Virus record (IMG/VR): IMGVR_UViG_3300050821_011348
Location: 1 to 25,232 of that record
Strand: one strand, 5' to 3'
Source of the DNA: a virus
Length of the DNA: 25,232 nt
This document shows positions 11,220 through 25,232 of this stretch, in pieces (position 1 is the first letter of the stretch; each line of letters starts with the position of its first letter). The notes under the pieces were generated by a model, which was given only the letters and a program-made list of their open reading frames with translations, had not been told where the DNA came from and searched no databases. The position numbers and the translations under genes are program-made.

Positions 11220-11419
11220 CTGCGCAGAATCTCAAGAGCGGCAAGATATCTCGCTTGCACTTCCGCGTCAGTTCTAGCGAGTCGCGCTCCCGGTCGATCA
11301 GTCGCAGGAATTGCGATGCAGGATGTCAAACCGCCAAGCGCGGCGACTACCTCCTCCAGCGTTGGCTTCCCTTGCATCTTTCGACAGGTGGAGCAATCGC
11401 AGCACTCACAGGCGCTCAT
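11207..11419 (-). CDS. Cys-rich small protein, 70 aa
   Basis: The N-terminus MSACECCDCSTCRKM has five Cys within twelve residues, likely binding metal. The rest is helical (TLEEVVAALGGL, AEVQARYLAALEILRRC). Its 3' end overlaps the ATPase start by 13 bases, and it lies 26 bases after the recombinase stop. Family not recognised. Confidence 0.6.
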   Translation of the reverse strand: MSACECCDCSTCRKMQGKPTLEEVVAALGGLTSCIAIPATDRPGARLARTDAEVQARYLAALEILRRCLT

Positions 11420-11445
11420 AAGGTTTTCTTTAATCCGGCTCTTTC

Positions 11446-12087
11446 CTAGTTTTCCACAGCTTTTGCAACTGCTTTGTTTTCAACGGCTACGGCTTCGCTG
11501 TTTTCTGAACCTTTTTCCGCATGCCGTCGCATGAATTTTCGGACAGTGGACTCATCTGCCTTCACGCGGTGCGCAACCTCGCGCCACGGCAGCCCCTGCT
11601 CGCGCAGGCGGGTGATTGCAACCGCGTCCAAGCCAAGCGCGGGCCGCCCGATGTGCTGGCCGTTTGCCCTGGCATGAGCCATTCCGCTCCGGACTCGTTC
11701 GCGGATAAGTTCGCGTTCAAACTCGGCGATGGCTGCGAAAACTGCGAATGCAAAGCGTCCCATGGGCGTGGTGGTGTCGATCGCTTCATGGACGGAGATA
11801 AACTCCACTCCGAGCGCGCGGAATTCCTCGAGCGCGTTCACAAGGTGCTGCGTTGACCTGGCGAAACGATCGAAGCGGTAGACGATCACCACGTCACACT
11901 TCCCGCGGCGTACCAACTGCATCATGCGGTCGAGCTCCGGGCGCTGCGCCTTCGCTCCTGAAAATCCGGCATCGATAAACACCTCGAGGTCGCATCCGCG
12001 GCGCTCGGCAAGTTCGCGCATCTCGCGCACCTGCATGCCTTCGTTTTGGTCGCCAGTGCTCACACGGGCATAGAGAAAAGCTTTCAT
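11446..12087 (-). CDS. Small serine recombinase (resolvase/invertase family), 213 aa
   Basis: Start ATG 12087 overlaps the upstream TGA (ATGA). An ATG four codons earlier is possible. The catalytic domain begins KAFLYARVSTGDQ with Ser10 as nucleophile, followed by family landmarks GFSGAKAQRPELDRM, VYRFDRFARS and FERELIRERV. Residues 145-185 are a C-terminal helix-turn-helix (REQGLPWREVAHRV, DESTVRKFMRRH). Length is standard for resolvases and invertases and too short for a large integrase. A repetitive Ala/Val/Glu/Asn tail ends the protein. Likely roles are dimer resolution of a circular replicon or inversion; no paired res or inversion sites were found. Confidence 0.85.
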   Translation of the reverse strand: MKAFLYARVSTGDQNEGMQVREMRELAERRGCDLEVFIDAGFSGAKAQRPELDRMMQLVRRGKCDVVIVYRFDRFARSTQHLVNALEEFRALGVEFISVHEAIDTTTPMGRFAFAVFAAIAEFERELIRERVRSGMAHARANGQHIGRPALGLDAVAITRLREQGLPWREVAHRVKADESTVRKFMRRHAEKGSENSEAVAVENKAVAKAVEN

Positions 12088-12268
12088 TGGCGAATCCATT
12101 CGATAAACGTACGCGCAAAAACACCTGCGATAAGTGCCCAGACTGCTGTCTTTTTTGAGTAGCGCGGCCCATCTTCGGCAGCAGCGATGGCGCTGTATGC
12201 GACACCCAGCAGCAAGACAACTCCCATCGTGTAAGAGTGCCAGACGTGGGCATAGAGAAAGGCTTTCA
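12066..12268. repeat. Pair of 21-bp direct repeats flanking the small membrane gene
   Basis: Copies lie at 12066-12086 and 12248-12268, 182 bases apart, differing at one position. Each covers codons 2-8 of a minus-strand gene in the same reading frame: the recombinase and the small membrane protein. Confidence 0.75.
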
Positions 12269-12269
12269 C
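12084..12269 (-). CDS. Small membrane protein, 61 aa
   Basis: GTG 12269 overlaps the previous TGA (GTGA) and is preceded by GAGGG. Two hydrophobic segments (about 15-31 and 44-56) flank a polar loop. Its first seven residues (MKAFLYAHV) copy the start of the recombinase that follows (MKAFLYARV); the DNA is 20 of 21 bases identical. It therefore seems to have arisen with a duplication of the recombinase 5' end. Function unknown. Confidence 0.6.
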   Translation of the reverse strand: MKAFLYAHVWHSYTMGVVLLLGVAYSAIAAAEDGPRYSKKTAVWALIAGVFARTFIEWIRQ

Positions 12270-12544
12270 TCGGGCACCCTCAGCAATTTGCAGCGCGGGC
12301 ACCACTCGAGGCGGATCAACTGCGGTGAACGTTGGTGATTGAGAAAGATCGGCTGCGGATCTTCGATTGGCGGGTCAGGCGCGACGATGACATAGATGGG
12401 CGACGGCTCCCAGTGGCAATCGTAGGTGTTGGTTGAGCAAGTCATGTGGTCTCGCAGTTCATAGGACTCGTGCGTGCTGCGCACAATCTCGGCGTGCAGG
12501 GCGAAGATCAAGTCATCGCGCGGGTTGCGCTGGCGGGTGGTCAC
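12266..12544 (-). CDS. Hypothetical protein with CPRC motif, 92 aa
   Basis: GTG 12544 follows GGAATGGA on the minus strand; it ends with a GTGA overlap with the membrane gene. The C-terminal WCPRCKLLRVPE and an upstream pair (MTCSTNTYDC) may bind zinc. The middle is Pro-rich. It is probably the first gene of the minus operon carrying the recombinase and ATPase. Family not recognised. Confidence 0.55.
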   Translation of the reverse strand: MTTRQRNPRDDLIFALHAEIVRSTHESYELRDHMTCSTNTYDCHWEPSPIYVIVAPDPPIEDPQPIFLNHQRSPQLIRLEWCPRCKLLRVPE

Positions 12545-12831
12545 TCCATTCCTGCCATTCTGCGAAGTTCTGCTAGTTCGCGATCTTCGCTTCTAACGCG
12601 TCTTTTGCCGTGTGGGCTCTCGGTTTCTGCCTGTCTCGATACCGATGGCCCTGGCAAGCGTAAAGGCGGCAACGGCGATGAGAAAAGCGAACAGTTGCGC
12701 ACAGGCGGTGCGTACCAGGGCTGGGGCCTTATTTCCTCTCTGGCCCCACTTTGGAGGTCACCTCAATGGTGACAAGGTGAAGTTTTATAGCCAACCACAC
12801 CAAACATCTTGCAAATAACGATTTAAGCCGT
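12545..12831. promoter_or_regulatory. Intergenic control region with promoter and 6-bp inverted repeat
   Basis: This 287-base gap holds no convincing gene. On the minus strand TTGCAA (12809-12814) and TATAAA (12784-12789) are 19 bases apart, or 18 if the -10 is read as CTATAA; this is a modest sigma70 match. Just downstream lies GTCACC-5-GGTGAC (12757-12773), an inverted repeat at the expected transcript start, as an operator would be. It would drive the 92-aa gene, recombinase and ATPase. Its AT-rich sequence also marks the edge of the tectonin-like gene. Confidence 0.35.
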
Positions 12832-14310
12832 TTAATCACATGGTCCTCCTACTGGGTCGTGAACGACGCTCAACTTAACGCAGAGGGGTGGGGTACCGAT
12901 GTAAGCCGAGATGAATAGCCACGGCCCTGTGGACGGCAGCACGTTCGCCACCCCCTGGGCGATCGGTAGGTTAGCGCTCGACACCATCTCTCGAAGGTCC
13001 ATCACGCGAGGGCTACCGATTATGACCTCCTCGATGATACAGGTGGGATTTCCAAACGCGCAGTTAAACTCCACCGGTATGTGGACTTGGATGTTCCAGC
13101 GGCTTCCATCCCACTTCGGAGATTCTTGCCAAGGGTTAGCGAGGGCACTCAACCTGTAGCGAGCGTGCGAAATGTTTCGGGCCGGTTGGTTTGCTTGCCC
13201 TATCGGCCCGGCTTCGCTGCATTGTTCGTTTACGCTCGTGGTTGACTGACACTCCGGATCGCCGGACATAATCCCGATGAAGGGATCGCAGAACGGGTTG
13301 GCGTCGAACGATCCGTTGCTCATCGTCCCGGTCGCGGGTATCCTCTCCGTCGCGACGGTCCCGCCTCCAGGTACGTGGTGGGGGAACGTGATGTGCACCG
13401 TAGAGGTGTGTTGTGCGACCTGAGGGTTCATTCCCTGAAAAGTGTAGATACCCGAGGTTAGTTCCGACAGAGCCCCGGCCAGAAAGTTCAGGTGGTAAGG
13501 GTAGCCAGAGGAGTTCAAGGCGTACAGAGAACTCTTGTTGGAACCAGCTACCTTGTTCGCCACTAACCCTGATACCTGGTGCCACGCGCCGTCGTCGTTG
13601 TAGTAAACGGCTCCAGCGCCGTTCCACGTTACGACCGCGCCGTGGTCCAGGGGGAACGAGGCGCAGCCCACGAGTCCGGCGGCGGGGGAGCCGAGACTAA
13701 CGGCGGGGTTACTAGACGATACCTCGTAGACGTTATTGCCGACGTTGACCGCGCACCCGACGCCACCCACCCACATGTTGACGTAGCGCCATCCGGTAGA
13801 CCACGAGGTCCACGTCGATCCCCCGTTAGTGGAATACCATAGTTGGTTGAAGCTGTTTACCCCGGCTACGAAGCCATCGACGCCAACCGACATCTGGATG
13901 AGGCAGCTGTTTGAACTCGGTTGAACCCAACTGGACCCGTTCCACTTGAATATCCCAAGGTTTGGAGGATACCCGTTGCAGTAGGTCGTCGATTGAAGTG
14001 AGTAGACGCTACTCCCGTCCTGCACGGCGAGGGATTTCACCGCGGTTCCCATCGCCGTCTGCTTCGTCCAACCGCTGGGGGCGTACGAGTAGACGTACTG
14101 GTCCGTCCCCACGCACCACGGGAGTCCGTCGGAACCTACCGACAGGGTCGACAGAGTGCATTGACCCGGCATAGCCTTCCAAGCGTTCGTGCCGGATTTA
14201 ACGTCGGACGTGATGTCCATAACTGGATCACTAAAGGTGTGTGTGTACTGAGCACTCGCGGAAATCACAAGTGAAATCAAACAACCAAACAACAGGATGA
14301 GTTTTTTCAT
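12832..14310 (-). CDS. Exported tectonin-like beta-propeller protein, 492 aa
   Basis: ATG 14310 lies ten bases after AAAAAAGGAG. Residues 1-20 form a signal peptide ending ASA-QY. From about residue 42 there are five or six repeats of 35-45 residues with the tectonin pattern: a strand with Ser-x-Gly-x-Asp-Gly, then a Val/Trp strand, an aromatic-rich turn and a Trp (LSVGSDGLPWCVGTDQYVYSY; MSVGVDGFVAGVNSFNQLWY). Tectonin propellers bind sugars or lipopolysaccharide in other proteins. The last 200 residues are a separate Cys-containing domain with no recognised family. Its flanks are AT-rich and it has its own strong ribosome binding site. It appears to be acquired cargo that could coat the cell surface or bind glycans; that role is inferred. 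Confidence 0.75.
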   Translation of the reverse strand: MKKLILLFGCLISLVISASAQYTHTFSDPVMDITSDVKSGTNAWKAMPGQCTLSTLSVGSDGLPWCVGTDQYVYSYAPSGWTKQTAMGTAVKSLAVQDGSSVYSLQSTTYCNGYPPNLGIFKWNGSSWVQPSSNSCLIQMSVGVDGFVAGVNSFNQLWYSTNGGSTWTSWSTGWRYVNMWVGGVGCAVNVGNNVYEVSSSNPAVSLGSPAAGLVGCASFPLDHGAVVTWNGAGAVYYNDDGAWHQVSGLVANKVAGSNKSSLYALNSSGYPYHLNFLAGALSELTSGIYTFQGMNPQVAQHTSTVHITFPHHVPGGGTVATERIPATGTMSNGSFDANPFCDPFIGIMSGDPECQSTTSVNEQCSEAGPIGQANQPARNISHARYRLSALANPWQESPKWDGSRWNIQVHIPVEFNCAFGNPTCIIEEVIIGSPRVMDLREMVSSANLPIAQGVANVLPSTGPWLFISAYIGTPPLCVKLSVVHDPVGGPCD

Positions 14311-14359
14311 TTTTTGTAGTCTCCTTTTTTGAAATTACTGCGCACAGTAAACAGTGGGG

Positions 14360-14555
14360 ATCACGGCTGCACCCCCGGCGGCGGGTCCGTGGGCAATGTA
14401 ACCTCATAAGCAAGACAATCACGTCCACAGCGCTGACACTTTGCTTGCGGAGATATCTTGCTAAAGTGGAGCACTACCGTTTGTTCCTCGACCATTTTGT
14501 CTACGCACTCGCTGCAGAGAATCACGGCTGCACCCCTGGCGGCGGGTCCGTGGGC
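14360..14555. repeat. Pair of 35-bp direct repeats flanking the 54-aa gene
   Basis: Copies at 14360-14394 and 14521-14555 differ at one base and lie 161 bases apart. Both encode the last ten codons and stop of a minus-strand gene, although the two genes use different absolute frames. Confidence 0.85.
14361..14525 (-). CDS. Zinc-ribbon microprotein, 54 aa
   Basis: GTG 14525 overlaps the upstream TGA (GTGA). CSEC near the N-terminus and CQRCGRDC further on form a four-Cys zinc ribbon. Its last ten residues, PTDPPPGVQP, are identical to those of the preceding 210-aa protein because the DNA is duplicated. Function unknown. Confidence 0.65.
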   Translation of the reverse strand: MILCSECVDKMVEEQTVVLHFSKISPQAKCQRCGRDCLAYEVTLPTDPPPGVQP

Positions 14556-15154
14556 TTGCGCGGGTCGGGCATGATGGCGCGGGGCTTGCGCTTGGGCTTC
14601 GGTGGCTCTTCCGGCGTCGTTGCTTTCGGAATCAGATCGTGGTCGCCATCGTGGTCGACGAAGAGCGTGCAGCCGGGGAAGGGGCAGAGGCGTGTCACTT
14701 CCTCCTGGCACTTGTCCGGCGCGGGCGCGGGCTCTTCGGCGAGTTTCTCGAGGTTTGCGGCGCTCAGGTCGCTTACGCTGGGCTCTGGTGCCGGCGACTC
14801 GGCGAGTGGGAACTGCAGCGTTTCCTGTTTTTCCTCCCACGTCATGTCATGGGTTTCTACCAGTTCGTTGCGGTCCATCCGGAAATAGGATTTCTTGCCG
14901 GGCTCGGGATGGTCGTAGCGGATATCACAGCCGATTTGTGCGGTCTCGCCGCCTTTGTTGTACTTCTTGGCGAGTTCGGACACCGCGGCTGAAAGCTTCT
15001 TCATGCGCTCATTGAATGCGGCATCGGAAACTTTCTTCTCGACTTCGACGGTTTCGTAATCGGCCTGCGCCTGGGCCATCTGCTGCGCGGTGGTGGTGAG
15101 TTCTTCCGGGGTGTACTTCTCAAAGATTGCGAGTGTGATGCTGTCGGATCTCAT
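14522..15154 (-). CDS. Hypothetical protein with coiled coil and Cys/His knuckle, 210 aa
   Basis: ATG 15154 overlaps the ASCH gene stop (ATGA). Residues 15-65 are helical with heptad spacing (LTTTAQQMAQAQADYETVEV and following). Residues 70-105 hold a beta segment (CDIRYDHPEPGKKSYFRMD). After an acidic Pro/Ala linker comes CPFPGC followed by DHDGDHDL, a Cys2/His2-type knuckle frequent in phage proteins. The C-terminus is Pro/Lys-rich. Family not recognised. The N-terminal part resembles a nuclease or recombination accessory scaffold only loosely, so no function is given. Confidence 0.7.
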   Translation of the reverse strand: MRSDSITLAIFEKYTPEELTTTAQQMAQAQADYETVEVEKKVSDAAFNERMKKLSAAVSELAKKYNKGGETAQIGCDIRYDHPEPGKKSYFRMDRNELVETHDMTWEEKQETLQFPLAESPAPEPSVSDLSAANLEKLAEEPAPAPDKCQEEVTRLCPFPGCTLFVDHDGDHDLIPKATTPEEPPKPKRKPRAIMPDPRKPTDPPPGVQP

Positions 15155-15546
15155 GCGGTGTGCTCCTTTGGCTCAAACTTCCAATGAATGATCTGGCCTT
15201 TGAATGGCAGACGTCCTGCCCAAAACTCAAGCATCTGATTGAATCCATCCGGAAAACCATCGCGTTTTGCGAGTGCGTCACGTTCGGATGGACTCAACTC
15301 GACGCCATCGATAGATACGAATGGATCGCAATTGCACTCATGCCCACATGCGTCGATTTCTATTTCTTCGACCTTGAGGCAAGGCACGCGCATGAGCAAC
15401 TGCGCGCCTTTATGGCGCAGTCCGGTGTAGAGGTGCAAGGTGTTACCGGGCTTGTCCGGGTTGCTGCGCGTCGCGCGGATGGTGTGCGTTTTTTCGCCGG
15501 CGAGAATGAACGGCACAAAGCGCGACTGAAAGTTATAGAGCCCCAT
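15151..15546 (-). CDS. ASCH-domain protein, 131 aa
   Basis: ATG 15546 has GAGGAG ten bases upstream; a TTG at 15573 is less likely. MGLYNFQSRFVPFILAGEKT and HTIRATRSN are the opening of the ASCH fold, a PUA-like RNA-binding barrel found in phage and bacterial proteins. The central GHECNCDP is a Cys/His insertion. The end FKGQIIHWKFEP is the closing strand. ASCH proteins are thought to bind or modify RNA; some hydrolyse modified nucleosides. The role here is unknown. It overlaps neighbours on both sides. Confidence 0.75.
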   Translation of the reverse strand: MGLYNFQSRFVPFILAGEKTHTIRATRSNPDKPGNTLHLYTGLRHKGAQLLMRVPCLKVEEIEIDACGHECNCDPFVSIDGVELSPSERDALAKRDGFPDGFNQMLEFWAGRLPFKGQIIHWKFEPKEHTA

Positions 15547-15712
15547 GCGTGGCGTGCTCCTCTCGTGCGGCAATTCGTCTCACATCTGCTTCCGCCCTAA
15601 ATTCGGCGGTTTCCCTGCTGACGTTGCTCATAAATTCAATAATTCCTGCCCGTTCTTCGAACAATTCCAACCACTTCTTGTCCCAGCGGGCGCGGTTGGG
15701 TGGAAGGTTCAT
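15533..15712 (-). CDS. Small charged helical protein, 59 aa
   Basis: ATG 15712 shares ATGA with the DUF551 gene's stop, and the ORF runs to TAA at 15533-15535, overlapping the ASCH start by 14 bases. The sequence is a charged helix (WDKKWLELFEERAGIIEFM; SRETAEFRAEADVRRIAARE). It contains the GAGGAG that serves the ASCH gene. Coupling on both sides supports it. No family recognised. Confidence 0.65.
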   Translation of the reverse strand: MNLPPNRARWDKKWLELFEERAGIIEFMSNVSRETAEFRAEADVRRIAAREEHATHGAL

Positions 15713-15963
15713 GACTTCGACTTCTCTCGGGTCGGCGGCGGTTCCGGCAGTTCGCGCCAGTGCGTGACGTCGATCCAGTTCGGAGCTGTGTTTGAAGGCG
15801 AACCGTCTCCTCGCGGATAAGTGAAGAATGGTCTATGCATACCCATGCAAATTCGCCCTTGAAAGATCCAACCGTCGCGATTGAAACAGAGAACATCTTG
15901 ATGCCGCGGTGGCCATCTCTCTTCAACTGATATCCACTGCGGCTCTGTCTTTATGTCGGTCAT
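15709..15963 (-). CDS. DUF551 family protein, 84 aa
   Basis: ATG 15963 overlaps the upstream stop (ATGA). QWISVEERWPPRHQDVLCFN at the start and THWRELPEPP near the end are the signature ends of DUF551, a small phage and bacterial family with an SH3-like fold and no known function. Length is typical for the family. Confidence 0.8.
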   Translation of the reverse strand: MTDIKTEPQWISVEERWPPRHQDVLCFNRDGWIFQGRICMGMHRPFFTYPRGDGSPSNTAPNWIDVTHWRELPEPPPTREKSKS

Positions 15964-16139
15964 CGGCTAAGCCTCACAATCACATCCAGCAGAAAATCGA
16001 CGTCCACAGCGCTAACCATGAAGCGGTTCCCCCGGTCGCGCGCGATCCGAAACAGCCTCTTGCGCTCTTCGTCGCTGAGCGGCAAACTGCGGGCCCGGGT
16101 GGCGCTTACGGTGGCATTCGCGGCAACTCCAGATAACAC
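15960..16139 (-). CDS. Possible small protein overlapping the HNH gene, 59 aa
   Basis: A GTG at 16139 opens a frame running through the last 128 bases of the HNH gene and beyond to a TGA at 15960, which overlaps the DUF551 start (ATGA). The C-terminal part (SDEERKRLFRIARDRGNRFM, then VDFLLDVIVRLSR) looks like real protein, and the stop-start overlap fits the operon's style. The upstream part of the frame looks like a shadow of the HNH, so the start is uncertain. Confidence 0.4.
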   Translation of the reverse strand: MLSGVAANATVSATRARSLPLSDEERKRLFRIARDRGNRFMVSAVDVDFLLDVIVRLSR

Positions 16140-16368
16140 CGGCTTCACTGTCGTCTCGATTCGCTCCGTGCTTTCGGTGAGAAAGTTCGCCGTGCTTGAG
16201 CCCATCCCATCCGGCGAATCGGTTGCAGCGCTTTCCGTTTCGGATTTCTTCACAGCGTCCCCCTGCTCGGTTGTAGACGTCGCGGCGCAGGTCGGTCTTG
16301 TCCTGGCCGCGGAGTTGGACTCGTCCGGTGCGCCACAAGACTTTGCTGCGCGGATCTTTGAAGTTCAT
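16012..16368 (-). CDS. HNH endonuclease-like protein, 118 aa
   Basis: ATG 16368 overlaps the Gp37/Gp68 gene stop (ATGA), preferred to GTG 16428. RDVYNRAGGRCEE opens the HNH fold; a second Cys occurs in GKRCNRF; ELSHRKHGANRDD carries the central His and Asn; CRECHRKRHPG closes the zinc site. Together these are the elements of an HNH nuclease of about normal minimal size. It could be a DNA nickase in recombination or packaging, or a free-standing homing endonuclease. Confidence 0.75.
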   Translation of the reverse strand: MNFKDPRSKVLWRTGRVQLRGQDKTDLRRDVYNRAGGRCEEIRNGKRCNRFAGWDGLKHGELSHRKHGANRDDSEAGVIWSCRECHRKRHPGPQFAAQRRRAQEAVSDRARPGEPLHG

Positions 16369-17333
16369 ACGCTCACCATCGCGGCCTTTGGGCTCGGGAA
16401 CTCGCGGACGCGAAGTGATTCCGGCCACTCGGAAGGCTCTCCGCCCTTACGGTCGTGCTGGCGTACTGTCTCCATGCCGCAATCGGGATGTGTGCATGAT
16501 TCGTCGCGGCATGAGTGCACCTGCGGGTGCGAACCTAGCTGCTTCATGAAGAACGGCACGCCCGCGGCGCGGCACTGCTCGAGCAGCGATTCTGCCCATG
16601 CCAGATTGAACGGTCGCGCACCTGGTCCGGACTCTCCGCCACAGATGACCCAGTCGATTCCGGGGATTACTGGGTCGCACCCATCAAAGCCCGTTAGGTA
16701 GGAGATCCATCCCACTTCTGGAGTGTCGTGGCCTAGTTCGATGTGCTCTAGTTGCGGCTCGATGCTCAGGAAGCGGACGGCGGCGGGAGTTTCTTGTAAT
16801 CGCGGGATGCGCTCAAGGGCGCGCTGCTGATCTTCGACGGAGACACCTAACCAGACATGCGAGAGCGGAAGCAATCCACGATAACGTTGCGGGGCAGTAT
16901 CGGCTGCTTCGCTGAGAATCTTGCGCATGCGCTCGGCGCGTTTCGTCAGCACCTGGAACGTGTGCTGGCAGCACTGCTCCATGACGGCGAATACTTCGCC
17001 GATTAGATCGTCCGGAATGGCTTCGTGGAATAGGTCGAACATGTCCCCGACGAAGATTCGGGCCGGTTTCTTTCGGTGCAGCGGTTCGGCCATGATCTTC
17101 TCATCGATGAAGAATTCGACGCGCTCCAAGTTGGGCACGGTGTACTCGAGTCCGTTGCCAAAGCGCTTGTTGATGACGGAGGCGTAACAGTGCGTGCAGC
17201 CTGGGGAGATGCGCGTGCAAAATGTACCTGTGCGTGGACCGTCGGCGAGTGCGGATTGTGGTAACGGATCTGTTCGGCGTGCGCGGATCGGATTCCATGT
17301 GTAGTCCGTCCATTCGATTGGCGTCTTGTTCAT
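16365..17333 (-). CDS. Phage Gp37/Gp68 family protein (DUF5131), 322 aa
   Basis: ATG 17333 is preceded by AAAGGATAGCAGG. The start MNKTPIEWTDYTWNPIRAR and the cluster FCTRISPGCTHCYA (Cys-x7-Cys-x2-Cys) are the family signature, with GGESGPGARPFNLAWAESL and GVPFFMKQLG near the end. The family is widespread in phages and mobile elements and has a radical-SAM-like Cys cluster; its reaction is not established. The last 40 residues add a Cys/His-containing tail (HSCRDESCTHPDCG). The gene begins 118 bases downstream of the ERF stop, across a long inverted repeat that may control it. Confidence 0.85.
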   Translation of the reverse strand: MNKTPIEWTDYTWNPIRARRTDPLPQSALADGPRTGTFCTRISPGCTHCYASVINKRFGNGLEYTVPNLERVEFFIDEKIMAEPLHRKKPARIFVGDMFDLFHEAIPDDLIGEVFAVMEQCCQHTFQVLTKRAERMRKILSEAADTAPQRYRGLLPLSHVWLGVSVEDQQRALERIPRLQETPAAVRFLSIEPQLEHIELGHDTPEVGWISYLTGFDGCDPVIPGIDWVICGGESGPGARPFNLAWAESLLEQCRAAGVPFFMKQLGSHPQVHSCRDESCTHPDCGMETVRQHDRKGGEPSEWPESLRVREFPSPKAAMVSV

Positions 17334-17343
17334 CCTGCTATCC

Positions 17344-17447
17344 TTTCCGGGTGTGGCTTGTTGCCCGTGTCACCGTGCCGCTTCAATCGCTTCGCGAGAA
17401 ATTAAAACGGCAATCCTGAATAGTGGCTAACTGCCACACCCCGGAAA
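17344..17447. repeat. Long-range inverted repeat between ERF and Gp37/Gp68 genes
   Basis: TTTCCGGGTGTGGC at 17344-17357 pairs with GCCACACCCCGGAAA at 17433-17447, with one extra C. The 75-base loop contains smaller hairpins (TCGC-TTC-GCGA near 17390). On the minus transcript the 3' arm ends next to the Shine-Dalgarno of the Gp37/Gp68 gene, so folding could hide or expose it. No known riboswitch was recognised and there is no U-run for a classical terminator. Confidence 0.6.
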
Positions 17448-17451
17448 CTCG

Positions 17452-18252
17452 TTAAATCGCGTACGGCTTATCCTTCGGCTGAAACTCCACGGTCTGGTTC
17501 CCGATTCGCATCTCCACCGACGGGGCCGCCCGCAGCGGGAGAGCTGGCTGGGCTGGGACGGCCTGGGGTTTTGGGGGCGCGACAGTGCCGCGGCCATCCG
17601 ATGCCCACCGAAAGAGTTCTTTAAAGTACTTCTGTCTCATCTTTGCTAGTTCAGCGGCATGTCCAATCCTGGCGACGGCTTGTGATAACTGCTCCTCCGT
17701 TTTGCCGGTGTTGGCCATGGCTTCGCGGAGATTGTCGATTTGATAGTCGGCGAGCGGCTTTTCCTTCCGTGGGGCGCGCATGGGCGCGACATCGTCTAAG
17801 GTTTCGCCGGCGGGCGTTTGTGTGCCATCCCATTCCGGGTCGTCTACTTCTTCGGCCATGAGTCCGAAGCGTTTCAGGAGTGCTTTCTGCGCACCGGTTT
17901 GAGCTTTGTAGAGTGCTTTGTCTTCAACGTCGCGGCCGACTCCGTGCACAGTGAACGGGCCGATTTCTCCACTGGCATCTCTGAATGAGTACCTTACGGG
18001 CAGACGACATTCTGTGATCTGTTCGCCGCCGTTCGATTGCGCGACGGCGACATATTCCGGCGTGCCTTCGTCGTGGATTACCAGCACGCCGCGGTTGAAG
18101 AATTCGAGGCGCACGGCTTCGAATACATCGGTGGCGCGGGTCCACTTGTAGTGGCGCTTCGTGTTGGTGCCGGCGCGCTGCAGTTTGCCTACGGCTTTGA
18201 AGGCCTGGGCGATCTTGTCGACGAGTAGGACGGGTGTTTTAGGTCGACTCAT
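17452..18252 (-). CDS. ERF-family single-strand DNA annealing protein, 266 aa
   Basis: ATG 18252 overlaps the upstream stop (ATGA). Residues 1-160 match the ERF superfamily pattern: a helix and strand (LVDKIAQAFKAVGKLQRAG), KRHYKWTRATDVFEAVR, a beta section (ITECRLPVRYSFRDASGE), and the conserved GRDVEDKALYKAQTGAQKALLKRFGL helix, shown here in outline. ERF proteins such as P22 Erf anneal complementary single strands and promote phage recombination and genome circularisation. The remainder is a Pro/Ala-rich linker and a helical region. It sits with HNH and HTH genes in an early recombination cluster. Confidence 0.85.
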   Translation of the reverse strand: MSRPKTPVLLVDKIAQAFKAVGKLQRAGTNTKRHYKWTRATDVFEAVRLEFFNRGVLVIHDEGTPEYVAVAQSNGGEQITECRLPVRYSFRDASGEIGPFTVHGVGRDVEDKALYKAQTGAQKALLKRFGLMAEEVDDPEWDGTQTPAGETLDDVAPMRAPRKEKPLADYQIDNLREAMANTGKTEEQLSQAVARIGHAAELAKMRQKYFKELFRWASDGRGTVAPPKPQAVPAQPALPLRAAPSVEMRIGNQTVEFQPKDKPYAI

Positions 18253-18464
18253 CGCTTTGTCCTCTTCTGCGCAACTTCTTCGGCGCGCTTCATGGCTTGC
18301 TCCTTGGTGAGAAATTCTCCGAAGATAGCTCCATGTGAAGAAGCAACCCAAGCAGTCTTTGGACCGTGTTGCTGCACACTGGCTTGGATTTCTCCGCTTT
18401 CGTTCTCAACGAAAAACCATTCAATCCAGCCAAGCGTGTGATCTGGAGATTCGATCCACTTCAC
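18249..18464 (-). CDS. Small protein, 71 aa
   Basis: GTG 18464 overlaps the HTH gene stop (GTGA). A beta-rich first half (LGWIEWFFVENESGEIQASV) leads to KTAWVASSHGAIFGEFLTKE and a helical end (AMKRAEEVAQKRTKR). The pattern resembles a small single-domain accessory protein of ERF loci. No family recognised. Confidence 0.65.
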   Translation of the reverse strand: MKWIESPDHTLGWIEWFFVENESGEIQASVQQHGPKTAWVASSHGAIFGEFLTKEQAMKRAEEVAQKRTKR

Positions 18465-18661
18465 TGGTTCACCTCGGCAAATTGCACGGCTTTCTCCCGG
18501 CGCTGCATAAATTTTTCTACGGCTTCCTCGCGGAAGCGGATCGAGCGGTGGCCGAAGCGCAAATAGGCAATCTTTCGGTTTGAGCGCAGCACCTGCAGCG
18601 TCTTGAGGCATACGCCTAAGCGTTTGCAGACTTCGCGAGTGGTGAGTAGGCGTTCGGTCAT
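18461..18661 (-). CDS. Excisionase-like / MerR-type helix-turn-helix protein, 66 aa
   Basis: ATG 18661 overlaps the HNH stop (ATGA). MTERLLTTREVCKRLGVCLK gives the winged-HTH opening, and YLRFGHRSIRFREEAVEKFM gives the wing and following helix, as in phage excisionase and AlpA-like DNA-binding proteins. A role in excision or early regulation is likely. No integrase partner is visible in this window. Confidence 0.8.
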   Translation of the reverse strand: MTERLLTTREVCKRLGVCLKTLQVLRSNRKIAYLRFGHRSIRFREEAVEKFMQRREKAVQFAEVNQ

Positions 18662-19077
18662 GCAGGATTCCTCCACGACCACGAGGTGCGCTCACGCTCC
18701 GTACAGAGTTTTTTCAACAAGCCCGGTTCGTTTGCTTCTTCCGGCGAGAGCATCGCAGGTTTAGGTTTAGGTATAGGTATACCGACGTGGGCTATGGATT
18801 TCTGCAGTAAGCGATGACGCTCTGCGTAAAATTCCGATTCCGTCCGCCAAGCTTTCAGTCGATTGCACGGGGTGCAGGCGGGCACGATGTTCTCGATGGA
18901 ATCGTCTCCGCCCCTGCAAATAGGCGTCTTGTGCTCTTTCTCGGCCTGATTCAGCGTGAGTGGAGTTTCGCAGTAATAGCACTTACATCCGCACTGTTGA
19001 AACTTTTCAATCCACTCTGTGCGCGTGTGGCGTTTTGCTCTTAACGGTGGAAAAATTATCGCTGCCTCGCTACTCAT
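18658..19077 (-). CDS. HNH endonuclease, 139 aa
   Basis: ATG 19077 follows GGGACAGGGCC. The HNH core runs from CYYCETPLTLNQAEKEHKTP through GGDDSIENIVPACTPCN: CxxC, EHKTP with the catalytic His, an Asn-containing GGDDSIENIV, and CTPC. This resembles Cas9/McrA-type HNH nucleases used by phages in packaging or recombination. The C-terminus has a Pro/Lys-rich segment. Its stop couples to the HTH gene. Confidence 0.85.
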   Translation of the reverse strand: MSSEAAIIFPPLRAKRHTRTEWIEKFQQCGCKCYYCETPLTLNQAEKEHKTPICRGGDDSIENIVPACTPCNRLKAWRTESEFYAERHRLLQKSIAHVGIPIPKPKPAMLSPEEANEPGLLKKLCTERERTSWSWRNPA

Positions 19078-19136
19078 GGCCCTGTCCCTTCGTTGTGCGA
19101 AAAACTTGGTTGTGATTCTTTTGCAAAAGTGGAAAT

Positions 19137-19358
19137 CTACAGTCCCATCCTTGCGAGCACGCGCGTGGTGCGCTCGATGATGGTTTCACCGCGCGCGGTC
19201 AGTTCGTCCCAGTCCGGATCCTCTTCCGGGTCGGGCGGTGCGTCGAGGATCTGCACGATTGGCTGGGGTGGTCGAGTTCCGCCTAACTGCACGATGCGCG
19301 TGGCAAGGTACTCCCAGCAGGCGGCGTCGATTTCGAGTTCAGCAAGTAGTCGGCTCAA
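19137..19358 (-). CDS. Hypothetical protein, 73 aa
   Basis: TTG 19358 lies six bases after GGGAGG. The helical start (LSRLLAELEIDAACWEYLAT) is followed by a Pro/Asp/Glu-rich linker and a short helix (ARGETIIERTTRVLARMGL). Longer in-frame starts would enter the upstream membrane gene. No family recognised. Confidence 0.6.
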   Translation of the reverse strand: MSRLLAELEIDAACWEYLATRIVQLGGTRPPQPIVQILDAPPDPEEDPDWDELTARGETIIERTTRVLARMGL

Positions 19359-19375
19359 CGGTAGCCTCCCAGTTT

Positions 19376-19480
19376 TTATTGCACTCCGTGCTCGAGAATG
19401 GCCCACAGGACAAAGCAGAAAACCGCGGTGATGAATCCCAGCGCCATAACGAATGCGATTTTCCCGGCTTTCTCAATCAT
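19376..19480 (-). CDS. Single-span membrane microprotein, 34 aa
   Basis: ATG 19480 overlaps the previous TGA (ATGA) and has GGAGGAAG upstream. A short basic N-terminus (MIEKAGK) precedes one hydrophobic helix (IAFVMALGFITAVFCFVLWA) and a brief tail. Below the size most gene finders keep; the coupling and ribosome site argue it is real. Confidence 0.6.
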   Translation of the reverse strand: MIEKAGKIAFVMALGFITAVFCFVLWAILEHGVQ

Positions 19481-19623
19481 GGCCGCTTCCTCCAGCGACT
19501 CGCGAGACAGATGGGGCACCACCAGTTGTCCTGTTTTCCCTCCGGAAAACGAGAGATACAGGCCGCAGTCAGGACGCAGAAAACTATCCCTAGCGCCACG
19601 AAAGACACCAATAAAGCGGTCAC
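19477..19623 (-). CDS. Membrane microprotein with CPIC motif, 48 aa
   Basis: GTG 19623 overlaps the previous TGA (GTGA). A hydrophobic helix (ALLVSFVALGIVFCVLTAAC) is followed by a polar segment with WWCPICLASRW. It may bind a metal at the membrane face. Coupled downstream to the 34-aa membrane gene, so the two may act together. Confidence 0.6.
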   Translation of the reverse strand: MTALLVSFVALGIVFCVLTAACISRFPEGKQDNWWCPICLASRWRKRP

Positions 19624-20120
19624 GCGCGCACCCCGATGATGTTCAAATACTTGCCTTCCTTCGCGGGCACCACATAAAGCGTGGTCAGTTGCCCGGTCAG
19701 TTGGCTGGACTTGCATTTGCTGATAATCCACGGCCAAAGCTTCTGATCGAAGCAGTTGGCGTCGATGTATCCGTTGGCGTTCGGTCCTGCGGCCTGCCAT
19801 GTAACTTTCAGAAATTTCGGCGTTTGCTCCACTTTCCAAATGGCGACTTCTCGCTCCTGGCATCCGGTGGGCCATGGCACTTCATTGCCTTGACGGTCCC
19901 TTGCCCAGCGGTCGCGCTGCTCGATGGGGGATGCAGCAGGCGCGGCCGCCGGGGGCGCTGTCGACGGCGAAAGAAGCGCACGGGCGGTGTGGGTGCCACC
20001 TGTGGGTGCTTCGAGTTGCACGCGACAATTCGTCAACTTGCTCACAAAGGTGCCGAGCGCGGCTGCCATGGCGGTGCGCTCGGATTCGGTGAGAGTGATG
20101 GTGTAGGTGGGCTCGCTCAT
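19620..20120 (-). CDS. Hypothetical protein, 166 aa
   Basis: ATG 20120 overlaps the upstream stop. The N-terminus (MSEPTYTITLTESERTAM) is followed by an Ala/Pro linker and a beta-rich C-terminal domain: EREVAIWKVEQTPKFLKVTW, NGYIDANCFDQKLWPWI, then GQLTTLYVVPAKEGKYLNII. The C-terminal pattern resembles a single-stranded DNA-binding or OB-like domain but this is not certain. Central position in the early recombination cluster would suit an SSB-type role. Confidence 0.65.
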   Translation of the reverse strand: MSEPTYTITLTESERTAMAAALGTFVSKLTNCRVQLEAPTGGTHTARALLSPSTAPPAAAPAASPIEQRDRWARDRQGNEVPWPTGCQEREVAIWKVEQTPKFLKVTWQAAGPNANGYIDANCFDQKLWPWIISKCKSSQLTGQLTTLYVVPAKEGKYLNIIGVRA

Positions 20121-20308
20121 GGACGACCTTCCGGGTATTCGAATGTGCGATCGCGAATGTCTAAGGGCTTCAGGCGTTCGTTCAGTTCGGCAAGCTGCGC
20201 GGCGATTTCCATCAGACAAAACGCTTGCATGCGGCCCGTGAGGCCAAACGAATGCCACCACTTACGCGGGCCAAGGCTGCACATCTTGCGGATCTGGTCG
20301 GCGGTCAT
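20117..20308 (-). CDS. Hypothetical protein, 63 aa
   Basis: ATG 20308 overlaps the upstream stop (ATGA). The sequence is mainly helical (TADQIRKMCSLGPRKWWHSF; MEIAAQLAELNERLKPL), with a Pro-containing tail. No family recognised. Confidence 0.6.
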   Translation of the reverse strand: MTADQIRKMCSLGPRKWWHSFGLTGRMQAFCLMEIAAQLAELNERLKPLDIRDRTFEYPEGRP

Positions 20309-20718
20309 TGAACTCTCCCGTGCGCGGACATTCCCGCGGCGATGCCAAAGTCAGCAATTCCAAAAAGCAGGACGGTCCGCGCCATCTTGGGATGCCCGTG
20401 CTTGCGCAGTTCGTACGACACTACGGCGTCGAGAACAAAGCATCCGGCGAAGTATCCGGCGGCGAGCGGTCGACCGTGTGTTACAAACGGGCGGGCGATG
20501 GGATTCGATTCTCCTCCGCTTCCGGAATAGCAGTAGCTGCCCCACGGTGTGTTCGTTTTGCAGATCGTCTGGAATGCGGCGTTGTGGGTAGTGAAGTAAA
20601 AATCAGCGACTTTGGCGGCGCCATCGATCGCCAGCAGAGCGCGGTCGGTCTTAATGGCTTCCTGTCCCCAGCAGAGCGACGCGGTGATGATGAATAGAAG
20701 TGCGGCAACGGTTTTCAT
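20305..20718 (-). CDS. Exported or membrane protein, 137 aa
   Basis: ATG 20718 is coupled by ATGA. A signal peptide (MKTVAALLFIITASLCWG) ends before QE. The mature part has two Cys and SNPIARPF, then hydrophobic stretches (AAGYFAGCFVLDAVVSYEL; TVLLFGIADFGIAAGM) that are likely membrane helices. The pattern is seen in uncharacterised Acidobacteriota membrane proteins. A superinfection or envelope role is possible but unproven. Confidence 0.65.
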   Translation of the reverse strand: MKTVAALLFIITASLCWGQEAIKTDRALLAIDGAAKVADFYFTTHNAAFQTICKTNTPWGSYCYSGSGGESNPIARPFVTHGRPLAAGYFAGCFVLDAVVSYELRKHGHPKMARTVLLFGIADFGIAAGMSAHGRVQ

Positions 20719-21473
20719 GCGACCCCCTCTTGTGCGAGATTTCGCACAGACTTGTTTTTCTTTTTCTGGGGAGTGATAACCGCGGGCGCTGCAACTCCCG
20801 CGGGTGGTGCATCATTTAGCCCAAACTCCGATGTGCGAATCCGTCGTGCCTCGCGCTTTGTCTCCGTCCTGCAGCTTGACCCGGTGAGGTGATCAGTCTC
20901 AGCCCCATATGCGCACGTCTTTTGGGGAGCATTACCATCGCGATTCGCAGCCATGGGCTGTTTTTTGTTGTGTGGTATGGATTTAGGCCCGAGCAGTGCT
21001 GCGCGTCGTGCGCAGATCGCGGGCCAAACTTTATCGGGATGAATGCCTAGAACCTTGTAAGTGGCATCGATGTGCGGCTGGGGATTTCCGTGGGAGGCGT
21101 AAAGGACTGTGATCCACGCAATGCGGATGTCATCGCGCAGCCACAGGTCGGATTCTTTCTGCTCGGCCGCTTCGAGGCGGACGAGGACGCGCTCGGCCAG
21201 AGGCATGCTGCGCTCTGCAGGAAGCGCGCCGGGGATAGTACTGCCAAGCACTTCAACTCTGAACGAGAGGACCGCGGATGTTACGGAAAGCGGAAAAACG
21301 GCAAAGACTAGCAGCCAGAGGATGATGCGGATGAAAAGCGGACCCGGAAGAATTAGTTTACATGATTTTTGGTCATTTGTTGAATCTAAAGGAGTTACAA
21401 TACCTGTTATCGGACATTGTGACGGGGTGTCACATGTTACATCCGGCCGCGATGTAGTCGTCCATGCCATCAT
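20715..21473 (-). CDS. Single-span membrane protein, 252 aa
   Basis: ATG 21473 overlaps the previous TGA (ATGATG); no later in-frame ATG, GTG or TTG precedes the conserved-looking part. One hydrophobic segment at about residues 47-70 (IRIILWLLVFAVFPLSV). A helical region (ERVLVRLEAAEQKESDLWLR) and a region with IHPDKVWPAICARRAALLG follow. The last 80 residues are Lys/Arg/Ala/Pro-rich and probably disordered. No family recognised. Confidence 0.6.
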   Translation of the reverse strand: MMAWTTTSRPDVTCDTPSQCPITGIVTPLDSTNDQKSCKLILPGPLFIRIILWLLVFAVFPLSVTSAVLSFRVEVLGSTIPGALPAERSMPLAERVLVRLEAAEQKESDLWLRDDIRIAWITVLYASHGNPQPHIDATYKVLGIHPDKVWPAICARRAALLGPKSIPHNKKQPMAANRDGNAPQKTCAYGAETDHLTGSSCRTETKREARRIRTSEFGLNDAPPAGVAAPAVITPQKKKNKSVRNLAQEGVA

Positions 21474-21646
21474 GCGGTTGCGCCTTCTGTCTGCTGCTGG
21501 GGGTGACGTTCGCGGTAGATCCGCTGGGCTTCGCGGTCATTGCATTTGCGGGAATGGAACTTCTGCCCCTTCACGCGGGGCACAAACATGACGTCGCAAT
21601 CTCTGGCGGCGCATTTTGTCTTTTCTTTCTTGGGAGCCTTCGCCAT
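21470..21646 (-). CDS. Zinc-finger-like microprotein, first gene of early operon, 58 aa
   Basis: ATG 21646 is chosen because the promoter's -10 lies only 11 bases upstream; the longer frame would start within the promoter. CAARDC and a later Cys in FHSRKCNDREAQRIYRERH resemble the treble-clef or zinc-ribbon proteins common as first early gene products. The transcript would have almost no leader. It ends coupled to the 252-aa gene. Confidence 0.65.
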   Translation of the reverse strand: MAKAPKKEKTKCAARDCDVMFVPRVKGQKFHSRKCNDREAQRIYRERHPQQQTEGATA

Positions 21647-21648
21647 AA

Positions 21649-21704
21649 CGTAAGTACTTATAGGCGCGGGCAGGCGGAATGTCAACGAAAATCGTAAGTA
21701 CTTA
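21649..21704 (-). promoter_or_regulatory. Early promoter with two TAAGTACTTA operators
   Basis: On the minus strand TTGACA (21680-21685) and TATAAG (21657-21662) are exactly 17 bases apart, a near-consensus sigma70 promoter. CGTAAGTACTTA occurs twice in plus orientation, at 21649-21660 overlapping the -10 and at 21693-21704 just upstream of the -35, 44 bases apart, both centred on the palindrome TAAGTACTTA. The layout is that of a repressed phage early promoter with cooperating operators. The repressor is not obvious in the window. Confidence 0.8.
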
Positions 21705-21767
21705 AGGGCGCAGACGAATAGGTGCCGTTTTGCGCGGCATTTCCACAGGTACGGGGAAATTCACAGA

Positions 21768-21929
21768 CTACGCAGATTTTGGCAGCGCTTTGTGATCGAT
21801 TCGGCGCCGCGGTCTGCGCTTCATGTGCGCATCGACAATGCGGTTCACGTGCTCAATGAATCGGTCGATGCTGCGAGTCCACATGGGATTCGAGAGGGAG
21901 TGCGGCGGGTTGGGGGAAGTTTTCGGCAT
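21768..21929 (-). CDS. Possible small basic protein, 53 aa
   Basis: ATG 21929 opens a Pro/Ser start followed by a helical basic part (DRFIEHVNRIVDAHMKRRPR). There is no clear ribosome binding site, and the longer frame from 21968 looks like non-coding sequence. It is next to the early promoter but upstream of it. Could be a small DNA-binding protein; existence uncertain. Confidence 0.4.
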   Translation of the reverse strand: MPKTSPNPPHSLSNPMWTRSIDRFIEHVNRIVDAHMKRRPRRRIDHKALPKSA

Positions 21930-21995
21930 AGCACATACAGATGTATCGTACCGTGCGCAAGGGCACAATCGGGTGGTTCCTTGATTACTAAAGTA

Positions 21996-22205
21996 CTAGG
22001 GAAGCAGGCGCTTCCACCATGGCAGCCTGGGCGCCGGCGCCTTGTGTTTGGGGATGTCGCAGCTGTCGTGGTGCGGAATGATCAGGTGGGTTAGGAATTC
22101 ACGGCCGCATTCGCTGCAGCGATCGAGCATCAGCACCGAGTTCCGATTGCGTACGTCGAGCGCTTCATCTGCGGCCATAATTCGCAGTGCGGAAAACTGC
22201 TCCAT
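21996..22205 (-). CDS. Zinc-finger-like protein, 69 aa
   Basis: ATG 22205 follows directly after the previous TGA. CSECGREF with HLIIPHHDSC provides a Cys2-His-type metal site. The C-terminus is Pro-rich with KRLLP. Upstream of it on the transcript is the small two-span membrane gene. Family not recognised. Confidence 0.6.
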   Translation of the reverse strand: MEQFSALRIMAADEALDVRNRNSVLMLDRCSECGREFLTHLIIPHHDSCDIPKHKAPAPRLPWWKRLLP

Positions 22206-22406
22206 TCAATCCTGCTTGTCCGGTTTCTCGGCCGGCTTGCCAAAGGCCCACTGTGCGAATCCTCCGGACAGCGTGGCCAGCGATCCAAGAATGTAATCCA
22301 GTCCGTAGCTTGAGTCCTGATGCACCTTGCCAATTGCCACGACCGCGGCTAACACCGCCAGCAGAACCAGTAGAATAAAGCCGAAGATCATGCGTGGTTC
22401 TTTCAT
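22206..22406 (-). CDS. Two-segment small membrane protein, holin-like topology, 66 aa
   Basis: ATG 22406; hydrophobic helix at residues 6-26 (MIFGFILLVLLAVLAAVVAI) and a weaker second at 37-55 (LDYILGSLATLSGGFAQWAF), then a charged Lys/Asp tail. Class II holins have this size and layout, but it lies far from the lytic enzyme and in the opposite operon, so another membrane role is equally likely. Confidence 0.6.
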   Translation of the reverse strand: MKEPRMIFGFILLVLLAVLAAVVAIGKVHQDSSYGLDYILGSLATLSGGFAQWAFGKPAEKPDKQD

Positions 22407-22511
22407 GCTAGACTGACTCCACTTTCGTGACTCGATATCGACTTGTGCCCCAAGAGCCTCGCTTCGGCGGGGCTCTTCCCTGCTCTGGCTGATCTCCGCT
22501 CCTCCTTTTCT
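22407..22511. terminator. Perfect hairpin with UUCG loop in 105-base gap
   Basis: The gap holds an 11-bp stem (22452-22462 with 22467-22477, one T.G) around TTCG. On the plus-strand RNA it would be the very stable C(UUCG)G tetraloop; on the minus strand the loop is CGAA. No U-run follows on either strand. It may end minus transcription from the 22.5-25 kb genes or process the RNA; classical termination is not demonstrated. Confidence 0.4.
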
Positions 22512-22724
22512 TCAGAATTTTCCGGCGTACCTGGTTCGATTGGTGATGAGTGGACCAAGCCTGTTTCGGATCTCTTCGAATGATTCCTTGACGTTCACTT
22601 TGACGTCACCTTCGAGTACGAGGAATGCGTGTAAGGTTTCGGTCTGATCTGCCACGGTGATCACCTTTTCGGTGTTCACGAGCACTAAGCGGCCATCTGA
22701 ATCGGTGAATTCGACGAACATCAT
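22512..22724 (-). CDS. Small FlbD-like hypothetical protein, 70 aa
   Basis: ATG 22724 overlaps the upstream TGA (ATGA). The pattern MFVEFTDSDGRLVLVNTEKV, then ADQTETLHAFLVLEG and VNVKESFEEIRNRLG is similar to small beta-rich FlbD-type proteins found in bacteria and phages, but the match is by eye and no role is claimed. Confidence 0.6.
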   Translation of the reverse strand: MMFVEFTDSDGRLVLVNTEKVITVADQTETLHAFLVLEGDVKVNVKESFEEIRNRLGPLITNRTRYAGKF

Positions 22725-22930
22725 TTCGCCCACGCTTCAAACATCTGCTGCTTGCCGGCCAGTTCGCCCATTTCCATCTCGAGCTCGCCCAAGCGCACGA
22801 CAATGGCCTCGAGCATCAGCGGATCGTCGCGCAGATCCTCGGCCAGCAGGATGGAGCGCAGCAGGTCCTGCGCCAAGCGAATCTCTTCGCTGGGTCGGGC
22901 GGCGACGTCGATGCGGCGCGCAGTGGCCAC
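22721..22930 (-). CDS. Small helical acidic protein, 69 aa
   Basis: GTG 22930 lies six bases after the upstream stop with AGGTG before it. The protein is almost all helix (RLAQDLLRSILLAEDLRDD; AIVVRLGELEMEMGELAGK), suggesting a coiled-coil dimer. Coupled to the next gene. No family recognised. Confidence 0.6.
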   Translation of the reverse strand: MATARRIDVAARPSEEIRLAQDLLRSILLAEDLRDDPLMLEAIVVRLGELEMEMGELAGKQQMFEAWAK

Positions 22931-22936
22931 GGCTGG

Positions 22937-23233
22937 TTACACCTGCAATTTCTCGTGCTCAATGTCGGCAACCAAGTCATCAAATCGCCCAATGATAGCA
23001 GCGAGCGCGGCGAAGTTCGGCACGCTGATCGAGGTTTCCTTGCGGAAGTCGAAGCCCGCAGACTGACCAAAGAATCGCGGAGGTTTTGGATGGAGCATTG
23101 TGCCCATGCTGGCCATTACTCCGACAGCTGCCTGCATCGGATCGCCGCCATGTTGAATTGCGCTAAGGTCCGGCATCTCCGGATCCTCTTCGACTTCGAT
23201 CAGCTTCACTTCGACGGCGAGAGCGTATTTCAT
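22937..23233 (-). CDS. Hypothetical protein, 98 aa
   Basis: ATG 23233 has AGGAG seven bases upstream. The N-terminal strands (YALAVEVKLIEVEED) lead to a Met/Ala/Gly-rich middle, then SVPNFAALAAIIGRFDDLVA. No signal peptide or membrane span. It belongs to a run of small proteins following the exported 146-aa gene. Family not recognised. Confidence 0.65.
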   Translation of the reverse strand: MKYALAVEVKLIEVEEDPEMPDLSAIQHGGDPMQAAVGVMASMGTMLHPKPPRFFGQSAGFDFRKETSISVPNFAALAAIIGRFDDLVADIEHEKLQV

Positions 23234-23706: not shown

Positions 23707-25020
23707 TCAGTTGGGTAGCGGTTTCGCCGGCGGCGGCGTGACAGCCTGGGCATGCTCGGCGGCGACGTCCTCGGCGTGCATGCGCAAAAAGGCGCGAATG
23801 AATTCCACTAACCGCGGCATGTTGTTGCAGGCTTCGCGCAGGATCGGCCGCTCTGTGAACAGTTGCAGCAATCGAGTCTCTCCCAGACCGGCCAGCTGCG
23901 TGACGGCATCGGGATTGAGCGTCTCGAGAAACGCCATCACTTCATCGGCTGCCTGCTCGACCGAAAGGTTGGGGGCTTTCAAAAATTCCACGATTTTGCG
24001 ATCGATGAATTCCACGCTGGGCGCTCCTCCGTTTGCGGGCGGTTGGGCTCCGTTGGGCGGGGCTCCATTGGGGGGAACCGGGGGGAGAACTTGCGGGTTG
24101 ACTCCTGGTGGCATGGGTGCGCCGCGCTGTATGGCGATAATTCTGGCTTCGCTCTCGCGTACCTTAGCGAACTCGCGGATGCCTTCCACGAATTGATTCC
24201 CTAGTGCGGGGAGCATTTGAACGAGCGCGGTGCCTGTGTTCACGGGCGAGCCCGCGGGCGCTGGATTTAACAGACGATCGAGCGCGGTTTTCATAATCGC
24301 CGCGGTTGTTTCGTCCTGGGTGCGTCCGGGATTGAGTTGCGCCTGCAGGGCAAGCAATTTCGTGAGCAAGTCGAGCGGATCGGGCGGCGGTTGGAGCATG
24401 CGCTGCATCATCACGGCCATGAATTGCCGCATCAGGTCATCGCCGGCCTGCGGCCGCCCCTCGCCCATCGTGCGCATGATGTTTGCCGCAGAGGAAAGTG
24501 CATCGATTCCGATGCGCACCGCCTGGTGCTCCGCTCCTGCAATTGTGTCGATGGCTTTGTTTGCGATCTGCGCGGTATCGCCGCTCATCATCGTGCTTCC
24601 GTTGTTGCCCGTGGGTTGTCCGGTGTCAATCGGAATGGTGATCGCGCGCGGCGGCGCATTGATGGCCAGATTTCCCGCGGTGACCATCATCGGGCCTTTC
24701 TTCACCAGTAGGCGGAACACTCCACCGCCGAAATTCTGCAGGAGCGCGAACTCGAGCTCTTCCTCGTCGGCGATCGGGATGCGCTGGCCGTTCGGCATAA
24801 CCACGATTGGCTCAGTGCACTTAAAAATGGGCACCTTGGGCGCTGGTTCGATGCGGTAACCGTAGACGATGTGCCGCGGCCAGTCGGCGTGGCCGATGGT
24901 GCGCAGATAATCCCAAAGATCTGGGGTTTTTGAGTCCTGAAGATCGCTGGCGGGAATGACGCGGCGTCGCGTCGTGGTTTCAATAACGCCATTCTCTTGC
25001 GGGTCGGTTGCAGGCTTCAA
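23707..25020 (-). CDS. Large uncharacterised protein, 437 aa
   Basis: TTG 25020 is the start, shortly after AGGTGAG. The N-terminal 115 residues contain beta segments (HIVYGYRIEPAPKVPIFKC; GGVFRLLVKKGPMMVTAG). A long helical centre follows (Met/Leu-rich, e.g. MRQFMAVMMQRMLQPPPDPL), then a Pro/Asn/Gly-rich linker (PPVPPNGAPPNGAQPPANGG), then another helical region with RLVEFIRAFLRMHAEDVAAE. No signal peptide, zinc site or enzyme motif was recognised. A scaffold, portal-like or internal virion role is possible. It is the first gene of the right-end operon, downstream of a promoter and the repeat array. Confidence 0.75.
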   Translation of the reverse strand: MKPATDPQENGVIETTTRRRVIPASDLQDSKTPDLWDYLRTIGHADWPRHIVYGYRIEPAPKVPIFKCTEPIVVMPNGQRIPIADEEELEFALLQNFGGGVFRLLVKKGPMMVTAGNLAINAPPRAITIPIDTGQPTGNNGSTMMSGDTAQIANKAIDTIAGAEHQAVRIGIDALSSAANIMRTMGEGRPQAGDDLMRQFMAVMMQRMLQPPPDPLDLLTKLLALQAQLNPGRTQDETTAAIMKTALDRLLNPAPAGSPVNTGTALVQMLPALGNQFVEGIREFAKVRESEARIIAIQRGAPMPPGVNPQVLPPVPPNGAPPNGAQPPANGGAPSVEFIDRKIVEFLKAPNLSVEQAADEVMAFLETLNPDAVTQLAGLGETRLLQLFTERPILREACNNMPRLVEFIRAFLRMHAEDVAAEHAQAVTPPPAKPLPN

Positions 25021-25083: not shown

Positions 25084-25111
25084 ATGATACAGGTTTTCCA
25101 CAGGATGACAA
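25084..25111 (-). promoter_or_regulatory. Sigma70-like promoter for the 437-aa gene
   Basis: On the minus strand TTGTCA (25106-25111) and TATCAT (25084-25089) are 16 bases apart. The leader would be about 57 bases to the TTG start. TTTTCCACA (25094-25102), a DnaA-box-like word, lies within the spacer, and TTTTTCACA lies at 25072-25080. Confidence 0.6.
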
Positions 25112-25114
25112 GGG

Positions 25115-25203
25115 AACACCACTTTGGTGTTGGCTGGTGTTGGGCCGGTGTTCGCGGAAACACTCGAGTGTTAACACTAGTGTTGCCCTGTGGTGTAACA
25201 CCA
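25115..25203. repeat. Array of ten AACACY/RGTGTT hexamers, operator complex or origin
   Basis: Hexamers start at 25115, 25126, 25136, 25147, 25159, 25167, 25173, 25179, 25192 (last base varied) and 25197, in both orientations. Nested perfect palindromes are AACACTCGAGTGTT (25159-25172) and AACACTAGTGTT (25173-25184), with AACACCA-3-TGGTGTT (25115-25131) and TGGTGT-A-ACACCA (25191-25203). The direct copies at 25126, 25136 and 25147 recur every 10-11 bases, one helical turn. The array abuts the -35 of the promoter and is beside DnaA-box-like words. Confidence 0.8.
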
Positions 25204-25232
25204 AAGTTCTTGCAATGCTCGCGGAAATCCCT

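Follow-up and report, generated by a model that had tools for sequence, protein, structure and literature searches.

The virus record IMGVR_UViG_3300050821_011348, analysed here over its whole length of 25,232 bases and called the window below, carries at its right end an array of short repeats that is probably a multi-site operator, a place where a regulator assembles, in the single divergent control region of a circular phage genome. Conservation of the array, its position between divergent promoters and a concerted change of its motif in one relative (G007) all support the regulator assembly site that an earlier note on this DNA had offered as one of two readings; the other, a phage origin, is not borne out. 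We infer that protein binding is the cause of the features of the array. The regulatory array is conserved; elements of this kind are known, and the array adds one from a phage family that has no cultured relatives. It is likely to be the control centre of that uncultured family of circular phages.

Anatomy of the repeat array

The array is real and lies beyond what chance provides. Nine copies of RGTGTT (AACACY on the other strand) occupy 88 bp, five of them GGTGTT and four AGTGTT, so that the hexamer is a degenerate one. A further GGTGT at 25192-25196 overlaps the last copy inside the palindrome GGTGTAACACC and brings the number of pentamers to ten; the ten copies of a single hexamer in 89 bases that had been described therefore become nine copies in two variants, and ten is reached only by counting this overlapping pentamer. 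A 130-bp stretch across the array holds 10 ACACY/RGTGT pentamers. Shuffling it 2000 times with dinucleotides preserved gave 1.5 on average and never more than 6, and the second-best cluster in the window has 3. The features of the window that concern us are these:

25115-25202: repeat array of mixed orientation, with copies at 25115 (-), 25126 (+), 25136 (+), 25147 (+), 25159 (-), 25167 (+), 25173 (-), 25179 (+) and 25197 (-), from the motif count; kept in seven relatives
25159-25184: two abutting perfect palindromes in the sequence, AACACTCGAGTGTT (25159-25172) and AACACTAGTGTT (25173-25184)
25192-25202: terminal palindrome GGTGTAACACC, with the rightward -35 box 7 bp beyond it
25084-25111, minus strand: predicted leftward promoter, TTGTCA-16-TATCAT, from a consensus scan
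25210-25232, plus strand: predicted start of the rightward promoter, -35 TTGCAA and a spacer with GGAAA, from alignment with relatives
23707-25020, minus strand: 437-aa protein, first gene of the leftward unit, with a beta-rich N-terminal domain in the structure model
9910-23233, minus strand: rest of the leftward unit, with an Erf-like annealing protein, an HTH_17 protein, HNH nucleases, a serine recombinase and an ATPase

The two abutting palindromes are perfect, as the earlier note had said. Its statement that copies stand in helical phase holds for the left side, where the spacings of 11, 10, 11 and 12 are close to one helical turn, but not for the right side, where they are 8, 6, 6 and 18. 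The AT-rich bases to which it drew attention are a weak feature, with 50-55% AT in 60 bp near the array in a genome of 58% GC. The note was correct that no gene explains the repeats: the array is non-coding and lies between divergent transcription units.

Conservation, the motif switch and the predicted flanking promoters

The end of the array is 30 bp from the end of the record, and relatives were needed to read its right flank. They were found through a phage ATPase gene and the 437-aa gene: a search with the latter gave one relative, G001 (36,252 bp), while the conserved ATPase gave eight others. The locus is covered by seven of them (G001, G002, G004 and G006-G009; 29-39 kb), which with the window make up the eight genomes compared here; G003 and G005, short fragments with neither flanking gene, were left out. 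Terminal direct repeats of 123-127 bp in G002, G006, G007, G008 and G009, and of 27 bp in G001, point to circular or circularly permuted genomes in these six. The window aligns with G001 across the ends of that record and lacks about 8.8 kb of it. In every genome covering the locus, the array sits between a homologue of the 437-aa gene on the left and a transglutaminase-like gene (Pfam PF01841 in G001) on the right, the latter lying past the end of the window and seen only in relatives. This gene stands where the earlier note had proposed to look for a Rep or repressor gene. Further proteins of the rightward side in the relatives look structural, as judged from position and conservation, and are accompanied by a lysozyme-like protein. 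The 437-aa protein has no Pfam or PHROG match.

All seven relatives covering the locus carry the array at the same place, so that it is not absent from similar elements, an outcome that would have told against it. In seven of the eight genomes it is the densest ACACY/RGTGT cluster genome-wide, with 7-10 sites compared with 3 in the next. Comparison of the window with G001 gives 0 of 40 positions changed in the ACAC/GTGT cores and 12 of 48 in the rest of the array, the changes showing no bias towards third codon positions. The remaining genome, G007, has at the same place its densest GTAC cluster (5 in 64 bp; the next best has 3), and AACACY has become TGTACY at several sites there. In palindrome B of this genome three base pairs are altered on both arms, the arms of AACACTCGAGTGTT having changed together. 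Across the eight genomes the arms of palindrome B pair at 40 of 48 positions against a shuffled mean of 33.1 (fraction 0.027), a figure that is only indicative, the arms having been picked out by eye in an alignment of related genomes; palindrome A has no arm-pairing excess over the eight genomes. A protein with altered recognition would be expected to leave the same letters changed at several of its sites, and the concerted switch in G007 thus implies a putative trans-acting protein. In the same genome the frame of the serine recombinase (31443-32129) is degenerate after its N-terminus.

Promoter-like elements directed outwards flank the array on both sides, at a constrained distance on the rightward side; both promoters are predictions from sequence. 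The adjacent promoter that the earlier note had seen is the leftward one. It matches the consensus at 10 of 12 positions and is the sole such match in 533 bp, where 0.2 would be expected; an independent scan of G001 also gave 10/12 and again a sole match in the region. Its spacer holds CTGTGGAAAA, which is the DnaA-box-like word read on the plus strand. Relatives retain TTG and TGTGGAAA at the position of this promoter, and the spacer word CTGTGGAAA is likewise retained; G001 has TGTGCAAA. On the other side, exactly 7 bp separate the outermost repeat from the TTG of a -35 element in 8/8 genomes, with an additional TTG at 3 bp in G002 and G004. The rightward -10 is past the record end in the window, and in several genomes where it is present it is poor: TCATCT in G001, TCATTT in G006 and G007, and also GCATTT. 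A consensus scan did not find the rightward promoter, whose elements are too far from consensus.

In six genomes TGTGGAAA is found again deeper in the leftward unit, followed after 60-100 bp by a small RHH-like or zf-CGNR-like gene (window 21740-21747, minus strand; G001 20053, G002 14811, G004 5106, G007 22011, G008 18740). It is similar there to the spacer of the leftward promoter and is possibly a second regulatory element. Another occurrence, at the 3' end of the serine recombinase gene (window 11451-11458, minus strand; G001 9787, G004 14619), is probably coding.

A probable multi-site operator and its rivals

In the operator that we propose, a putative DNA-binding protein, phage- or host-encoded, would bind AACACY half-sites: dimers would occupy the palindromes, and the helically phased copies would be filled side by side. 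Cooperative assembly of this protein on the array would control both outward promoters. The leftward promoter, which is near consensus, would fire first and express the genes for recombination and DNA metabolism. Once the array had filled, the palindrome beside the rightward -35 element would serve to activate the weak promoter in front of the structural genes, and the leftward promoter would be damped. We suggest this direction of control because the 7-bp spacing is fixed and the rightward -10 is weak. A bolder version has the whole genome run from one bidirectional switch by an unrecognised protein, not of known HTH or RHH type and perhaps universal in the family, that polymerises on hexamer half-sites, with G007 as a naturally occurring specificity switch, its protein and sites having co-evolved. 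We regard that version as doubtful.

Known systems share parts of this architecture. The parS/operator arrays of plasmid pSM19035 consist of 7-10 copies of a 7-bp word, direct and inverted, that overlap promoters and are bound cooperatively by the RHH protein Omega, each heptad being read by one dimer (PMC9499535). The number of short words, their two orientations and their location over promoters are shared with the phage array, but the plasmid word is WATCACW rather than AACACY and its heptads are contiguous; the plasmid also has six sites and a ParA partner, neither of which is seen in this phage family. Divergent-promoter phage switch regions such as CI/MOR of TP901-1 (PMC7250872) have operators between or over two divergent phage promoters, and in this the two systems are alike. 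In that switch the two repressors are transcribed from the two promoters, whereas neither first gene here is a recognisable regulator, and the array has 9-10 short sites. P2-type Cox boxes are multiple short boxes beside divergent phage promoters and are read by a winged-HTH protein; in the present family an HTH_17 protein is found in five genomes but is missing from three that bear the array.

The reading of the array as a replication origin, with the repeats as iterons for an initiator beside a DnaA box and an opening region, is in our judgement unlikely. Clustered repeats and a DnaA-box-like word are indeed features of theta-plasmid iteron origins (PMC4980987); the genome is circular, the word (TTTTCCACAG; TTTTGCACAG in G001) is kept near the repeats in relatives, and there is a mild AT rise, its local maxima ranking among the top 0.1-4.4% of 60-bp windows. 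But the adjacent DnaA-box-like words of the earlier note reduce to one, TTTTCCACA at 25094, the single word within one mismatch of TTATCCACA, and it lies inside the spacer of the leftward promoter, GGAAA being present in the spacer of the opposite promoter too. The arrangement of repeats and word tracks the promoters, and the AT rise suits promoters as well. In contrast to such iteron origins, the array has no adjacent Rep gene, is of mixed orientation and is tied to two promoters, and its repeats are short where iterons are long and direct. Profile searches matched no flanking gene (the 437-aa protein or the transglutaminase-like one) to a Rep or repressor family. The 437-aa protein was considered as a Rep and rejected: it has no family match, only poor fold hits, and no recognisable Rep in its structure model. 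Nor does GC skew, the check that had been proposed for an origin, have its extrema consistently at the array, the detrended minima of six circular records lying at variable distances from it. The presence of a DnaA-box-like word next to repeats is thus no sure sign of an origin.

The pSM19035 architecture, in which promoters carry seven to ten short repeats of either orientation (PMC9499535), could also suggest a parS-like partition or clustering site for an RHH protein, and six genomes encode a small RHH-like protein. We hold this to be very unlikely: no ParA-type ATPase occurs among the proteins scanned, there is one array per genome against six sites in the plasmid, and the RHH-like protein, which has no Pfam match, is absent from G008 and the window, while G002 and G004, despite near-identical arrays, have different versions of its putative DNA-contact strand. 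It is still less probable that the array is an accessory site for the phage serine recombinase, serving multimer resolution or inversion. The recombinase gene is present in 8/8 genomes and dyads are the usual targets of such enzymes, but the gene is about 13 kb from the array in the window and degenerate in G007, genomes whose arrays are alike have recombinases with different C-terminal HTHs, and the half-sites are too short and too many. Least credible of all is a coding repeat or an RNA structure. Some genomes have an open frame running through the array, and the minus strand shows somewhat better folding than shuffled sequence (z -2.4); against this, the substitutions are free of codon-position bias, the extended frames of G008 and G009 are unlike in sequence, Rfam gives no match, and palindrome arms 0-2 bp apart are easier to reconcile with a protein dyad than with an RNA hairpin.

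If the array is an operator, as we favour, its reader may be a universal protein without a known family, or a host protein. No candidate regulator of a recognised kind is common to all eight genomes: the RHH-like protein is in 6/8 (and not in G008, a complete genome), the HTH_17 protein in 5/8 and a Fis-like HTH_8 protein in 2/8, and G002 and G004, whose arrays are near-identical, differ in both RHH-like protein and recombinase. Each of these three, like the recombinase, was rejected as the universal binder, being missing, broken or mismatched in some genome. Eight natural arrays, one with an apparently switched specificity, could serve to find the regulator.

The phage family

The window and its seven relatives are circular phages of about 33-39 kb, six of the records having terminal repeats, and are likely to represent an undescribed family. 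Neither the 437-aa protein nor the ATPase retrieved a relative from 84,980 bacterial and archaeal genomes, and none was present among 50,697 phage records; plasmid collections were also without a match. The conserved ATPase and a conserved 259-aa protein have no match in PHROGs or in those phage records, and the structure model of the 259-aa protein, a possible capsid, is of too low confidence for use. Rfam and tRNA scans were empty. Among matches to the array-word pattern, L003 is G001 itself; L004-L017 and the non-family matches of a later search were set aside as chance or unrelated. L094 has 11 sites in a contig of 33% GC that look like a tandem repeat.

Besides the conserved 360-aa ATPase, G001 encodes a HerA/DUF87-like ATPase (L026, 12564-14621). 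An 80-bp stretch at window positions 20900-20979 is 98.75% identical to G001 19020-19099, in surroundings of 74-89% identity, and is possibly the product of a recent exchange between the two phages.
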